Assembly (NCBI GenBank): GCA_002070755.1
Contig: MWDY01000061.1
Coordinates: 1 to 9,220 of the forward strand
Source of the DNA: Spirochaetes bacterium ADurb.Bin110
GTDB lineage: Bacteria; Spirochaetota; Spirochaetia; Treponematales; Rectinemataceae
Direction of reading: 5' to 3'
DNA length: 9,220 nt
The translations under genes and the position numbers were made by a program. Below, piece after piece: positions 2,104 through 9,220 of this stretch. A model generated the notes under the pieces. The model searched no databases. It worked only from the letters and a program-made list of their open reading frames with translations, and was not told where the DNA came from. How positions within the stretch are numbered: position 1 is the stretch's first letter; the number at the start of each line of letters is the position of its first letter.

Positions 2104-2136
2104 ATTTAACTCTATTTTCCAGAGATAGACGAGTAG

Positions 2137-2149
2137 CTATGTTTTAAGT
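2137..2149 (+). repeat. Left terminal inverted repeat of the IS110 element
   Basis: CTATGTTTTAAGT is matched without mismatch by its reverse complement at 3689-3701 and at 3797-3809. It begins 33 bases from the start codon of the FemAB-like gene. Confidence 0.85.
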
Positions 2150-2159
2150 ACGGTGCGTT

Positions 2160-2345
2160 CGCGGTATCCTGAGTCTGACGGGACTCGGGAGCCGGTGGCA
2201 GGTAGTCCGTTATCCGGAAGGCGCCAACTTCGAAAGAAGCGAGGATGACCTTGATGACGAGTAGAATCTAAACCGGCCATCGAACATCTAGGTGCGGCGC
2301 GCCTCAAAGGAATATGGTGTGACCGCGAATAGGAGATTTCGCGTA
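2160..2345 (+). ncRNA. Candidate bridge/seek RNA encoded in the IS110 leader
   Basis: IS110 elements are known to carry a non-coding bridge (seek) RNA next to the recombinase gene, whose loops pair with target and donor DNA. Here the only space for it is the 254-base leader, because the terminal repeat follows the transposase reading frames directly. The leader can form several hairpins by eye. The stem 2168-2175/2182-2189 has eight pairs including one G-T. CTTC-GAAA-GAAG lies at 2228-2239. CGCGAA/TTCGCG pairs 2324-2329 with 2338-2343. Nine bases at 2256-2264 are identical to the left insertion flank, and seven at 2209-2215 are complementary to the right flank. The RNA ends given here are guesses; a covariance or folding analysis of related elements would fix them. 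Confidence 0.55.
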
Positions 2346-2403
2346 CAGCTGAGCGCATCACAAGACTCCCGGTTTCCTTTTATTCTCATCCAGGGAGGAT
2401 AGC

Positions 2404-3591
2404 ATGGAAGGAAAGCGGTTTGTGGGTATTGATTTAGCCAAGCGGCACTATGAAGCCTGTGTACTTGAGGAGCAGAGGCCGATAAGGCGCTGGAGTGGGA
2501 AGACTGATTTTGAAGGCAGAGCCCAGCTTGCAAGAAATCTTTGTGCAGGGGATGTGGTGGCCCTCGAAGCAGGTGCCTCTGCGATAAACCTTGCACGGCG
2601 ACTTATGAAGGTAGAGGGAGTGGAGGTAGTGCTCTTAAATCCTGCGAGTCTTGCGATCATCTATGGCTCGATGAAGAAGACAGATAAAGAGGATTCGCTC
2701 AAGCTTGCACGGATCATACAGACAATGCCAAAGGAGAGTTTACCCATTGTGGCACTGCCCAGTAAGGAGGAAGAACAAGCGCGAAGGCTTGCAAATCAAC
2801 AGATGTTCTTAAAGCAAGAGCGCACGAGGATGCTGAATAGGCTGCATGGGCTTTTTGTGGAGCAAGGGGTGACGACGATCACCAAGAAGGACCTTGCGAA
2901 GCAGAAGGCACGCAGCGCCACGCTCCTGCAGCTTTCTGGAGTCTATCGGACCATGGCGAGCCAAGATTGTACCCTGCTTGCTGCAATAGAGGAGCAGATT
3001 GTCTTGGTCAATGAAGAGATTCACCAGATGCTTTGTGCGAGGCAAGGTGAGGCAGAGATCCTCATGTCGATTCCTGGGGTAGGGCCGGTAGCTGCCTTGG
3101 CGTTTCTTGGGTTTATTGGAAACGGGGATAGATTTGCGAATGCGTCCCAAGTGAGCTACTACGCAGGACTGGTACCGAGAGTCGATTTCTCAGGGGATAG
3201 TGTTCACCATGTAGGACATATCACGAAGAAGGGCAGTCCTGCCTTACGGAGGGCCTTAGTGCAGGCAGCCTGGTCAGCAGTGCGTACGCCAATGGGCTCG
3301 CATTTCCGGGAAGTCTACGATCGAATTGCGGCACGCAGAGGCAAGAGAATTGCGATCGTGGCAGTGGCCCGTAAGATCCTCGAACTCATGTATACGCTTA
3401 TGAAAAAGCATGAGCTCTATTGCTATGCTACAGCTGAGCAACGTCAACGGAAACTGAAGCTCTATAAACTTGGTTCTCTGCAAAGCGGTACAGTCCTGAA
3501 CTCTACGATAGGGTCGCCGCACGCCGAGGAGAAAAGATCGCAATTATGCCAGTTGCCCATAGGATATGTACACCTATGCATATCCTCATGA
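2404..3591 (+). CDS. IS110-family DEDD transposase with aberrant C-terminal tail
   Basis: This is the recombinase that excises and inserts the element as a circle. The N-terminal RuvC-like domain shows the DEDD set: D10 in VGIDLAK, E55 in ALEAG, and D94 and D97 in KKTDKED. A helical middle region (about 120-215) leads to the C-terminal Transposase_20 domain with SIPGVGPVAALAFLG (222-236) and YYAGLVPRVDFSGDS (252-266). S263 is the likely catalytic serine, and HITKKGSPALRRALVQ follows (272-287). The start ATG has GGAGG (2394-2398) five bases upstream. The natural protein probably ended near residue 361. Residues 363-395 come from reading, in the wrong frame, through a remnant of another IS110 transposase, so the tail is not family-like. 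Both catalytic domains are intact; whether the altered tail permits activity is unknown. Confidence 0.9.
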   Translation: MEGKRFVGIDLAKRHYEACVLEEQRPIRRWSGKTDFEGRAQLARNLCAGDVVALEAGASAINLARRLMKVEGVEVVLLNPASLAIIYGSMKKTDKEDSLKLARIIQTMPKESLPIVALPSKEEEQARRLANQQMFLKQERTRMLNRLHGLFVEQGVTTITKKDLAKQKARSATLLQLSGVYRTMASQDCTLLAAIEEQIVLVNEEIHQMLCARQGEAEILMSIPGVGPVAALAFLGFIGNGDRFANASQVSYYAGLVPRVDFSGDSVHHVGHITKKGSPALRRALVQAAWSAVRTPMGSHFREVYDRIAARRGKRIAIVAVARKILELMYTLMKKHELYCYATAEQRQRKLKLYKLGSLQSGTVLNSTIGSPHAEEKRSQLCQLPIGYVHLCISS

Positions 3592-3689
3592 GGAAGCATA
3601 TGGTCTATCGCTCTAGTACCGAGGAGGAGGAGTACCAGCGGAAACTAAAATTCTCTACATTTGGTTTTTTGGAAACCGAGCGGTCTTGA
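3492..3689 (+). pseudogene. C-terminal remnant of a second, divergent IS110 transposase
   Basis: In a different frame from the transposase before it, these 66 codons (65 residues and TGA) start SPELYDRVAARRGEKIA and end in a TGA that overlaps the inverted repeat. They align along their length with residues about 300-361 of the upstream protein (FREVYDRIAARRGKRIA, then LMKKHEL against LMRKHMV, and QRKLKLYKLGSL against QRKLKFSTFGFL), but with many substitutions. It is therefore a paralogue's tail, not a recent copy. The joint lies at about 3484-3491, where AGCGGT also occurs; the same hexamer recurs at 3679-3684 and 3787-3792. This points to recombination between two related elements. Confidence 0.75.
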
Positions 3690-3701
3690 CTTAAAACATA
3701 G
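3689..3701 (+). repeat. Internal copy of the right inverted repeat
   Basis: ACTTAAAACATAG overlaps the stop codon of the transposase remnant (TGA at 3687-3689). It is followed by GAGCAT, not by the sequence that pairs with the leader, which suggests it is not the true outer end. Confidence 0.8.
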
Positions 3702-3796
3702 GAGCATATGGTCTATCGCTCTAGTACCGAGGAGGAGGAGTACCAGCGGAAACTGAAATTCTCTACATTTGGTTTTTTGGAAACCGAGCGGTCTTG

Positions 3797-3809
3797 ACTT
3801 AAAACATAG
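3797..3809 (+). repeat. Outer right inverted repeat of the IS110 element
   Basis: This is a second identical ACTTAAAACATAG, 108 bases after the first. It is followed by GGGATAACTCGT, which forms an inverted match with the left flank and is partly complementary to the leader, so it is the more likely functional end. Confidence 0.8.
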
Positions 3810-4165
3810 GGGATAACTCGTAAAACTTCTCTTGTTAATTTTTCATTTTCTTTTAATATTATCAATATTATATCTCTCTTTCTACTTAATTAATTCTTTT
3901 ATTGAAGCAATAAATAGTCAGCACCAAGATACACAATTTCGAAAATTTTGGCTCTAAAACCACGTTGACTTTTTATTATCTCGCTAATTTCTTCTATGCT
4001 TATCGTTTAGTGTTTTATATCGATATATTTAATGATTTTTTTCCTTTTGTACACGAAATGAGAATAAATTATTTACTTTGCTATATTTTAAGCTATTGGT
4101 TAACTATATACCTAGCCAACTCAATAAAACGACCCTAAAATATGTTTCCCTAGGGTATAGATAAG
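3810..4165. other. AT-rich intergenic DNA downstream of the GT4 gene
   Basis: This is a strongly AT-rich stretch without a recognisable gene. On the minus strand a 35-codon open segment (4006-3902, ending at TAA 3899-3901) reads like protein (EEISEIIKSQRGFRAKIFE) but has no ATG or clear ribosome binding site. It may be the trace of a decayed gene. Bases 3816-3821 (ACTCGT) are the inverted counterpart of ACGAGT at 2129-2134 on the other side of the IS element. A CCCTAGGG palindrome lies just after the GT4 stop, but no hairpin followed by a T-run is evident. Confidence 0.5.
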
Positions 4166-5423: not shown

Positions 5424-6532
5424 CTAAATTAAAGAATCTATTACCTTGTTTATAATGTTAATCTCCTCAGATTCAATTGCTGAGCTCACTTTGAAGTTTA
5501 GTATCCTATCAGCAATATATTCTGCTGCTGGCAGCGCCTCACGATTGCAAGCGTACAGTCTATGAAGCGCTGGAAAATATAACCTAGAGCAGAAAATACC
5601 TTGTATTCTCAATGCTACCATGATTTTGTCTCTCTTTTCGGGGGACACCAGAATACTGTATCGAAAACAAGTCCCCTGATCAGGGTTGTATTTAAGATGT
5701 TTGAAAGATCTACTTACTATTCCTTCCTTAAATATCAATGCAGATTTTCTTCTTTCTCTTAAAGTATCGCTTATATTTTCGAGATTATCTCTTATCCTTT
5801 CTGCAATGGAATCATTAGCTCTATAGAGGAACATTGGTTTTAGAATATGAATTAGTATAAGCATAATAGGATAAATGTTAATATTTTTAGATTGTAATAC
5901 ATTCGCACATCGATGAAAATGAATATAAATTCTCTCATATTCTAGTCTACATTTTTTATCCAATATCGGCAATTTTTCGACTAGCCCCCTAATCTTGTCG
6001 TATAAATACTTATAACTAGTAAATAGCGCCTCACTTCCTTCACAGTCAAGGATTTTTTAACTGCCAAAACTTTTAATGCTGATATCTCCAAAGTCCCCAA
6101 TCATCCTTGCGCCGATCTTATCGCCAAATGATTGTGCAAAATCTTCAATAAGAAATAAGCAATTCTCATTAGCAAAATCTCTCAGTGCCTCCAAATCCTC
6201 GGGTTGCCCAAAATGATGAATTGCAATTATTCCCTTAACATTGTTATTAAATTTACGATTCATAGACTCCTTTTTTAATGATAAGGTGTTGGGATCAATA
6301 TCTATGAACACAGGAATGTATCCTGCAAATCTAATAGCGATAATAACACTATGGCAAGTTAGGCTTGAAACAAAAAACCTGACCCCTTAGGTACGTTTAG
6401 TGATTTCAAAGCTACTATAAGAGCAATAGTTCCCGTACCAACCAAGATACAATAGCGTTGTCCAATAAATCTCGCAAGTTTATCCTCTACTGACAGAATT
6501 AAATTGCTTTCAGAAATCTTTGACTCAACCAT
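5424..6532 (-). pseudogene. DegT/DnrJ/EryC1-family aminotransferase, broken by frameshift and stop
   Basis: Three frame segments together give a normal-length (about 369-residue) sugar aminotransferase. The first segment starts at ATG 6532 (MVESKISESN) and has VGTGTIAL. It loses frame in a run of six T on the coding strand (6377-6372); one extra T would restore VPKGSGFFVSSLTCHSV. The second segment carries PVFIDIDPNTLSLKKE, IIAIHHFGQPEDLEAL and LIEDFAQSFG. It ends SIKSFGS at an in-frame TAA (6059-6057), directly before the KILDC lysine expected to bind PLP. Beyond it the same frame runs to 5424 with the family C-terminus (FRYSILVS, LPAAEYIADRIL). The following GEGG-type motif is also degraded (DCEGSEA). 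Two independent lesions make it very likely non-functional, unless one is a sequencing error. It lies 20 bases after wzx and ten before the GT4 gene, in one operon. Confidence 0.87.
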
Positions 6533-8254: not shown

Positions 8255-8945
8255 CTATGTGAATCCCACACTTATTGATGGACTCATCTGGCTAGTATAA
8301 TACAGTTTTTCATATTCTGCTGGTGGTATGTTGCCAAGAGATTCCAGCAGTCGTTTGCTATTAAACCAAGATACCCAATCCAGCGTTGCATATTCAACCG
8401 CATCGAAGTTCTTCCACGAGCTTTTTTTATAGATCACCTCAGTTTTAAAAAGCCCGATCACACTTTCTGCCAGTGCGTTATCATATGCATCACCGACACT
8501 GCCTACGGACGGCGTGATTCCTTCTTCGGCAAGTCGATCAGTGTAGCGAATAGAAAGATATTGGCTTCCACGATCGCTATGGTGAAATTAGCGACCCACA
8601 GCTGGTTCGGCCGGTCGGCCCAGAATGCCCTTTGGACGAGATCTAAAGGCCTCAGATTACTTTTTGAAGGTATTGTTGTGTGCTTAATTGTCCGATTACG
8701 TGTGCCGCCCTGCAGCCCCATGGTCTTCATTATCCGCTCTGTAGTACAGTGAGCTATTTTGAAACCTTCACGGTGTTAATTGTCGCCATACTTTACGGGC
8801 ACCATATACCTCATGGTTTTCTTCCCATACGCGCTGGATTTCATGCATATCTATTTCGTCTTTTCGATGTTGGGCAGATTGTTTCTCTGGGTACTTCTTT
8901 CAGCCAGCGTCGCAAGGATTCGGCACTGCTGTAATCCGTCACGGT
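8225..8945 (-). mobile_element. Decayed IS3-family insertion sequence
   Basis: This is a fragmentary IS3-type element with a DDE transposase, no longer active. From its 5' side there is an OrfA-like piece (TDYSSAESLRRWLKEV, about 8945-8885) followed directly by an OrfB N-terminal piece (EIDMHEIQRVWEENHEVYG) in another frame. A one-base insertion at about 8773-8778 then shifts frame to REGFKIAHCTTERIMKTMG. The first catalytic aspartate is changed (WVANFT instead of WVADFT, N codon at 8589-8587). At about 8581 the middle of the catalytic core, including the usual stretch up to the second D, is missing. A third frame (8581-8255) continues HSDRGSQYLS to GDAYDNALAES, with the expected 35 residues between D and E, and ends at TAG. 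A terminal repeat follows at 8225-8254. Confidence 0.85.
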
Positions 8946-9032: not shown

Positions 9033-9220
9033 GTGCAGTATATCGCATTTGATTCGCATAAGCGATACACCTATGCGGTGGTAGAAGAAAAAGAGAAAGG
9101 GCGGGTGATGGAAAAGCGTATCGAGCATAGGAGAGGTGAAATAGGAGCTTTCCTTTCACAGTGTGAAGTTGGCTCGCCTGTAGCCCTTGAGACTATAGGT
9201 TCCTGGTATTGGATTGTGGA
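9033..9220 (+). CDS. IS110-family transposase, N-terminal part (runs off window)
   Basis: The first 62 codons of a second IS110-type recombinase are present. It starts at GTG 9033, eight bases after AAGGAGGTG. The protein begins (V/M)[18 protein letters not shown], the usual first strand of the DEDD domain with the first aspartate at residue 7. It continues to [13 protein letters not shown] with the expected glutamate (ALET). The remaining catalytic residues lie outside the window. It is clearly different from the 2404-3591 transposase ([10 protein letters not shown] against VGIDLAKRHY), so two unrelated IS110 lineages occur in this locus. It lies directly next to the decayed IS3 element and may have inserted into it. 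Confidence 0.85.

Follow-up and report, generated by a model that had tools for sequence, protein, structure and literature searches.

An upstream leader resembling a bridge RNA, with guides to both flanks of an IS110-family element in Spirochaetes bacterium ADurb.Bin110

The window analysed here, the whole 9,220-nt stretch of contig MWDY01000061.1 from Spirochaetes bacterium ADurb.Bin110, carries an IS110-family element whose leader very probably encodes a bridge RNA for the DEDD transposase specified downstream, with target guides that still match the present insertion site. A loop of the leader matches both target strands and covaries with the target, as does that of a bridge RNA or seekRNA. 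The structure, both target guides, the right donor guide and the target-loop handshake positions are supported by covariation, and the core AG rests on uninterrupted target repeats; transcription, protein binding, catalysis and the activity of the window copy we infer. The features, in window positions, are as follows.

2132 to 2133, plus strand: left core dinucleotide AG, adjoining the left target ...GACG (2128–2131); placed from the relatives' register and the LT-AG-RT target repeats
2134 to 3810, plus strand: IS110-family element, left end TAGCTATG..., right end ...ACATAGG; placed from the relatives' ends and the core of uninterrupted target repeats
2137 to 2149, plus strand: left arm of the 13-bp subterminal inverted repeat, containing the -10-like TATGTT (2138–2143)
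2168 to 2189, plus strand: 5' stem-loop of the probable bridge RNA (helix 1, changes on both sides at 8 of 9 pairs)
2191 to 2277, plus strand: target-binding stem-loop (helices 2–5)
2209 to 2215, plus strand: right target guide GTTATCC (target loop, 5' side), complement of 3811–3817
2255 to 2259, plus strand: left target guide TGACG (target loop, 3' side), matching AGACG of the left flank at 4 of 5
2260 to 2261, plus strand: core-matching AG of the target loop
2262 to 2263, plus strand: putative handshake guide TA, the same two bases with which the element begins (2134–2135)
2278 to 2343, plus strand: donor-binding stem-loop (helices 6–7)
2284 to 2290, plus strand: right donor guide ACATCTA (donor loop, 5' side), in which 5 of 7 bases agree with the left end's complement (CTA with TAG)
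2329 to 2335, plus strand: left donor guide ATAGGAG (donor loop, 3' side), the sequence of the usual right end followed by the core (ATAGG-AG)
2404 to 3591, plus strand: IS110-family DEDD transposase ORF, 395 aa, with an ending unlike that of close relatives (many 356–366 aa); identified by PF01548, PF02371, NF033542 and alignment
3595 to 3810, plus strand: right-end tail, two tandem 108-nt copies
3794 to 3799, plus strand: -35-like TTGACT, 17 bp from TATGTT in the joined circle
3797 to 3809, plus strand: right arm of the 13-bp inverted repeat, with an inner copy at 3689–3701
3811 to 3812, plus strand: right core, GG in the window copy and AG in most relatives

The transposase has the DEDD/RuvC-like N-terminal and Tnp_20 C-terminal domains of the IS110 family in the broad sense (PF01548, 1.4e-14; PF02371, 2.3e-24), and scores 229 bits against NF033542 (cut-off 140). 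Relatives came from a scan of genome contigs (seven loci, six in Treponema), from a protein database (1406 proteins at E <= 0.001, the best 120 considered, those nearest the window mostly metagenomic) and from whole-genome searches confined to the phylum of Treponema, which found matches in 17 of 392 genomes at E <= 1e-40, in 9 of 195 with P0002 as query, and in 3 of 30, 1 of 22 and 7 of 145 genomes in further searches; these sets overlap. Viral contigs gave one remote fragment with an alignment query and no occurrence of the left-end pattern, and a phage set gave 18 records with remote matches. The leader lies upstream in the window and in the relatives with a readable leader. The left end measures about 240–310 nt, and in nine relatives the right repeat begins between 6 nt before and 81 nt after the stop codon; the corresponding distances in the window, where the tail is rearranged, are 97 and 205 nt.

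The inverted repeats of the window element are perfect (13 bp, 100%). The left ends of relatives mostly read AG-(3 to 5 bases)-TATG(A/T)T and their right ends CTTGAC...CATAGG-AG. Left cores are AG across the tabulated copies, and right cores deviate in five: GG in the window, L018 and L051, AC in L055 and AA in L039. The position of the core follows from genome G602, where one pattern led to five places, namely the inserted copies L054 and L056 and the uninterrupted repeat members L061–L063 (one mismatch each to the pattern). The latter have a single AG in the sequence LT-AG-CGAGGGGG, so that the core is AG and the window element spans 2134–3810. L062 is close to the left flank of L054, with two differences over the final 44 bases (hand count), and L061 resembles that of L056. 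Since their right sides are shuffled among the members, L061–L063 are paralogous repeats and not the pre-insertion locus; by eye these target sites look REP-like, a dispersed repeat with palindromic stretches alongside. A core at 2135–2136/3808–3809 was dropped, as the spacer in the circle would shrink to about 11 bp (hand count) and the relatives' register would be lost. In 18 of 22 copies, joining the ends places a TTGACA, TTGACT or (L019) TTGAAA box 17 bp from a TATGAT-like box, which in two of them is CATGAT or TACGAT; the exceptions are L020 and L034, with no -10 at the expected place, and L057 and L058, with a spacer of 20 bp.

The transposase frame departs from the relatives' ending near residue 354–366. 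The same odd ending occurs in P0010 (86% identical over 63%; from the best 120 of the 1406 proteins), and the rearrangement is therefore shared. Judging from this ending and the tail, the window copy may be inactive. Beyond the usual transposase end, at 3475–3700, lies a second, degenerate C-terminal piece of a related transposase in another frame (YDRVAARRGEKIAI...). The 108-nt tail duplication begins at AG and each copy ends in CATAGG, giving a joint between the copies, CATAGG-AG, that is like the recombination core. Elsewhere the window carries FemAB-like, glycosyltransferase and polysaccharide-flippase genes, a DegT/DnrJ/EryC1 aminotransferase split over two ORFs and probably broken (5424–6311) and, by eye, IS3-type transposase fragments and the start of a second IS110-type transposase (8280–8930 and 9033–9220).

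The leader structure was derived with RNAalifold from 22 leaders aligned by MAFFT, blind to structure, and its statistics refer to that same alignment. Of the 39 pairs, 31 have changed on both sides; pairing holds in 93.6% of cells, versus 76.2% after shuffling and 35–47% after sliding by 1–3 columns, and the covariation score is 0.597 versus 0.268 shuffled and at most 0.164 slid. The fold, supported by this covariation, consists of a 5' hairpin and two stem-loops with internal loops (2168–2343), the layout of the IS621 bridge RNA. The two segments to which an earlier note on this DNA had drawn attention, GTTATCC (guide 1) and the 3' segment (guide 2), lie on the 5' and 3' sides, respectively, of one and the same loop, the first internal loop, between covarying basal and apical stems, and each covaries with its flank; a conserved stem between them was not found in the covariation structure of the 22 leaders. 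Folded singly (z -2.58), the window leader has its guides partly paired to each other because the target is a partial inverted repeat. No match to Rfam reached the gathering score. Extra hairpins were seen by eye in the leaders of L004, L005 and L006, outside the guides and at or before the base of the target loop.

Guides and flanks were compared across 29 tabulated copies including the window, with guide segments and core registers set from hand-chosen anchors. The left tests used 25 of the 29, leaving aside L046 (no left end) and L036, L039 and L056 (copies of one leader or cut flank), and the right tests 21, six copies having no usable right flank and L036 and L056 being omitted; the right test with one-base shifts used 20 (L001 has 7 bases of flank). 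Kept out of the guide tests were L003 and L033 (leader truncated where the contig stops), L048 and L051 (broken or fragment), L007 and L015–L017 (remote or partial), second views of places already used (L008–L014, L040, L041, L043, L044, L047 and L049) and elements with other ends (L024–L029, L031, L032, L037 and L038), among which L028, L029, L031, L032, L037 and L038 were tested apart. Thinned sets were made by hand, dropping L002, L006, L034, L050, L052 and L058 on the left (n = 19) and L001, L034, L052 and L058 on the right (n = 17); they still contain the moderately close pairs L053/L055, L004/L042 and window/L018.

With free local matching, guide 2 reached a score of 8.12 on its own left flank as opposed to 4.76 on those of other copies (n = 25), and guide 1, compared with the complement of the right flank, reached 5.95 on its own and 3.98 on others (n = 21); in neither case did any of 20,000 permutations reach the observed sum. 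Four controls on the wrong strand or wrong side were null, the observed sum being reached in 80%, 88%, 16% and 39% of permutations. Trimming the six bases nearest TATG from the left flank lowered the guide 2 signal to 4.88 versus 4.00 (2 of 20,000), because those bases are the core and left end. In a fixed register, left positions -5 to -1 agreed in 76–88% of own pairs and 23–28% of other pairs (n = 25, three of them, L004m, L020 and L034, one base out of register here and in register in the column scan and thinned sets), and agreement at -9 to -6 was near background. On the right, core position 2 and positions +1 to +7 agreed in 45–65% of own pairs (others, 45% at the core position and 23–32% beyond), falling to 30% versus 20% at +8; when the register was free to shift by one base, 119 of 160 positions agreed versus 70.6 permuted (0 of 100,000 as high, n = 20). 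The thinned sets gave 85 of 95 positions on the left (permuted mean 27.9) and 105 of 136 on the right (59.5), each reached in 0 of 100,000 permutations, with at least 4/5 in 17 of 19 copies and at least 6/8 in 11 of 17. Among all 26 copies with a usable left flank, 22 agreed at 4/5 or better, 15 of these at 5/5, and four fitted poorly (L005, L023 and L058 at 3/5, L056 at 2/5); poor right fits, 4/8, were seen in L018, L034 and L035 out of 20 copies.

A column scan, free of leader anchors and reliant on hand-set flank registers, led to the same places. The top peak was at columns 135–139 for the left target in the same sense (window 2255–2259; own 4.55/5, others 1.29, z 11.5; n = 22, 242 columns) and, with the right target taken as its complement, at column 88 (window 2208; z 6.9; n = 17, 237 columns). 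Weaker peaks in the wrong sense were at column 89 (left target complement, z 3.9) and column 253 (right target same sense, z 4.2), the latter coinciding with the donor-loop handshake place described below. Relatedness is an unlikely source of the signal since the flanks belong to different sites; some relatives do have a common target (L022/L052, L035/L050). L020 and L034, from the same genome, differ in both guides, and their left guides track the flanks (CTCAG/CGCAG and CACGG/CACGG); the right guide tracks the flank in L020 (TCGCAGA) and only partly in L034 (4/8). A single 5.5-kb contig (L004) holds two related elements with different guides in opposite orientation.

In the window copy guide 1 agrees at 7/7 and guide 2 at 4/5 plus core. 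GTTATCC (2209–2215) and its complement GGATAAC (3811–3817) each occur once in the window, a letter-exact correspondence as the earlier note had it, and GGATAAC occurs in full at none of 15,052 non-element positions. The nine-base identity that it had reported between 2256–2264 and 2128–2136 is also exact, GACGAGTAG being found at these two places and nowhere else in the window on either strand. Its reading changes, however: the element starts at 2134, so the nine bases are not wholly left of it, and the match divides into four target bases (GACG), two of the core (AG) and three of the element's own end (TAG), two of which look like handshake positions. For guide 2, 10 of 973 AG sites in the non-element window (both strands, relatives' register) have at least 4/5 to their left. 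The flanks are in part inverted copies of each other, as had been cautioned, sharing ACGAG/CTCGT; the consequence for independence is minor, as GGATAAC overlaps CTCGT only by its last C. The proposal of a bridge RNA with its target preserved is supported by relatives at other sites, which do not retain the two segments but change them with their flanks, apart from the minority of poor fits.

The donor loop matches the element's own ends. Among seven registers, a single one shows covariation of the loop's 5' side with the complement of the variable bases at the left end (108 of 176 versus 78.9 permuted, 0 of 100,000; n = 22); the donor guide and left end are, it should be kept in mind, parts of one element and partly co-inherited. 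ATAGGAG on the 3' side equals the right end plus core and is conserved, so that the left donor guide provides no covariation evidence. In the target loop, the pair of bases following the AG of guide 2 agrees with the element's first two left-end bases in 43 of 50 cells (29.8 permuted, 0 of 50,000), or 46 of 75 with a third base added (p 0.006); leader and left end are inherited together, which makes this test less independent than the flank tests. In the donor loop, the pair following ATAGGAG agrees with the right target's first two bases in 18 of 42 cells (10.3 permuted, p 0.004), a modest signal for handshake positions there.

Two readings without a bridge RNA were weighed against these data. 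The flanks do share an inverted stretch, and five of the nine matched left bases are core or element, yet the permutation tests on relatives and the column scan leave only a minimal probability that the matches arose by chance or merely from flanks that are inverted copies of each other. Co-transcription of the leader with the transposase gene would also suit a cis-acting mRNA structure (an attenuator or translation control) with flank-like segments copied from the site after insertion. We regard this as very unlikely, though slightly less so: both loops match DNA partners in fixed registers and with one strand polarity, and the left guide of L054, TTCGG, equals the uninterrupted repeat L062 of the same genome and is one base off its own left flank, TTCGA.

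A tree was built from 36 transposases: the window, 28 relatives (sister clade included), partial IS621 and ISCro4, and IS4321, IS1492, IS5708, ISKpn2 and ISShdy1, which we take to be IS1111-group references. The window and its relatives fall outside both reference groups (92/98), where the references are few and both groups meet on long branches; with the same reservations, the five IS1111 references form a clade of their own without the window. The nearest relative found with a readable leader, L018 (transposase identity 61–62%, leader 79% identical over 250 bases), has the same ends, left core AG and right core GG, and differs in its guides, in one stop in the transposase frame and in a poorly fitting right guide (4/8). 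ISLin1 of Leptospira plasmids (L058, with the close copy L057; about 39% transposase identity) lies inside the window's clade and shares the leader, ends and guide order, but has a left extension one base longer and a circle spacer of 20, not 17. The sister clade comprises six elements (L028, L029, L031, L032, L037, L038; 33–37% identity), also with an upstream leader, and with different inverted repeats, by eye of the GAGCCCGTAAGTCA type. Its 3'-side segment tracks the left flank (sum 51, reached in 2 of 720 permutations, one of them the true arrangement), and the guide order may therefore be older than the window clade; a right-guide match (8 bases) is, by eye, clear only in L029. These elements sit at A-rich stretches, possibly terminator tails (by eye).

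The earlier note had urged caution over the order of the two segments, the right-flank piece first. The order is real, and is that reported for IS1111 elements in PMC11187229, where tested members have the top-strand match first and ISEc21, with an upstream RNA, has the reverse. According to PMC11208160, the RNA lies in the left end of most IS110 and in the right end of IS1111 elements. The window agrees with the IS110 group in having the RNA in a long left end, with a short right end; it departs in guide order, in its AG core where that group has the bottom-strand guide first and CT, and in inverted repeats of 13 bp where they are absent or 2–3 bp. With the IS1111 group it shares the top-strand guide before the bottom-strand guide, as in the seekRNAs of ISEc11, ISPa11 and ISKpn4, the long subterminal inverted repeats (7–17 bp in that group) and a promoter in the circle, as far as PMC11187229 describes them; it differs in its non-coding region upstream and not downstream of the transposase gene, in a transposase outside the references used, and in the bases outside the repeats, 3 bp left and 1 bp right plus core (hand count) versus 7 and 3 bp. 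A direct IS621-type label was rejected since guide order and core differ, and a direct IS1111 label since the RNA is upstream.

The closest model in layout is IS621, an IS110-group element (PMC11208160, PMC11208158; PDB 8wt6). It has the two-domain DEDD/Tnp_20 transposase, an upstream RNA in the left end, the order 5' stem-loop, target loop, donor loop, a 2-nt core, a promoter across the RE-LE junction, and a target-loop 3' side of 5 guide, 2 core and 2 handshake positions, all as in the window. In contrast, the window has the reversed guide strand polarity, top-strand AG instead of CT, 13-bp inverted repeats instead of 2–3 bp, and a 5-2-7 target; in IS621 the CT core occupies positions 8–9 and the right guide binds 10–14 of a 14-bp target, that is 7-2-5 (PMC11208158). 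Transposase similarity is remote (2.8e-16 to IS621, 2.6e-17 to ISCro4) and mainly in the C-terminal domain.

In the mechanism we propose, excision would yield a circle in which the right end adjoins the left, and this junction would form a TTGACT-N17-TATGTT promoter for the bridge RNA and transposase. In the target loop, 2209–2215 (5' side) would pair to the right of the core, on the top strand, and 2255–2261 (3' side) would pair on the bottom strand with the core and the bases to its left. Once strands have been exchanged, positions 2262–2263, which match the element's own left end, probably act as a handshake guide. The donor loop would pair by its 5' side with the left end and by ATAGGAG on its 3' side with the right end. 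Guide order, core (AG being CT on the other strand) and target shape (5-2-7 versus 7-2-5) would then be those of IS621 with the ends inverted relative to the gene and RNA. On balance we think it likely that the reversed order of IS1111 versus IS110 elements need not mean a different mechanism, and that this clade uses an upstream IS621-type bridge RNA with inverted ends: order, core and target asymmetry flip together, and the two sides of the RNA retain their roles, the 5+2+2 guide-core-handshake layout among them. A simpler alternative, which we hold possible and rather doubtful, is an ordinary IS1111-group element whose non-coding region merely lies upstream, as in ISMtsp17, so that the order needs no new idea. 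The 13-bp subterminal repeats and the guide order suit it, as do exceptions in print, a few IS1111 members with an upstream region of which PMC11187229 names ISMtsp17, and the listing of the Leptospira element IS1533 in the IS1111 group (PMC11187229 and PMC13046281). Against it stand the position of the transposase clade outside the five IS1111 references and partial IS621 and ISCro4, on long branches and with few references, and the two plain internal loops, as in IS621, where many IS1111 RNAs are reported to have the donor-binding bases in a multiloop (PMC11208160). No report combining an upstream RNA with the top-strand-first order was found in the open-access literature searched (text, without figures or supplements).

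A mirrored clade with an upstream RNA would make guide order separable from RNA position. The elements described here provide a clade of probable bridge RNAs with readable guides, far from IS621 and of opposite polarity, and the handshake positions gain covariation support outside the IS621 lineage. The mirrored arrangement offers a testable reason for the opposite guide order of IS1111 and IS110 elements, a question left open in PMC11187229, and the AG core of such a system could add to the cores available for programmable recombination.
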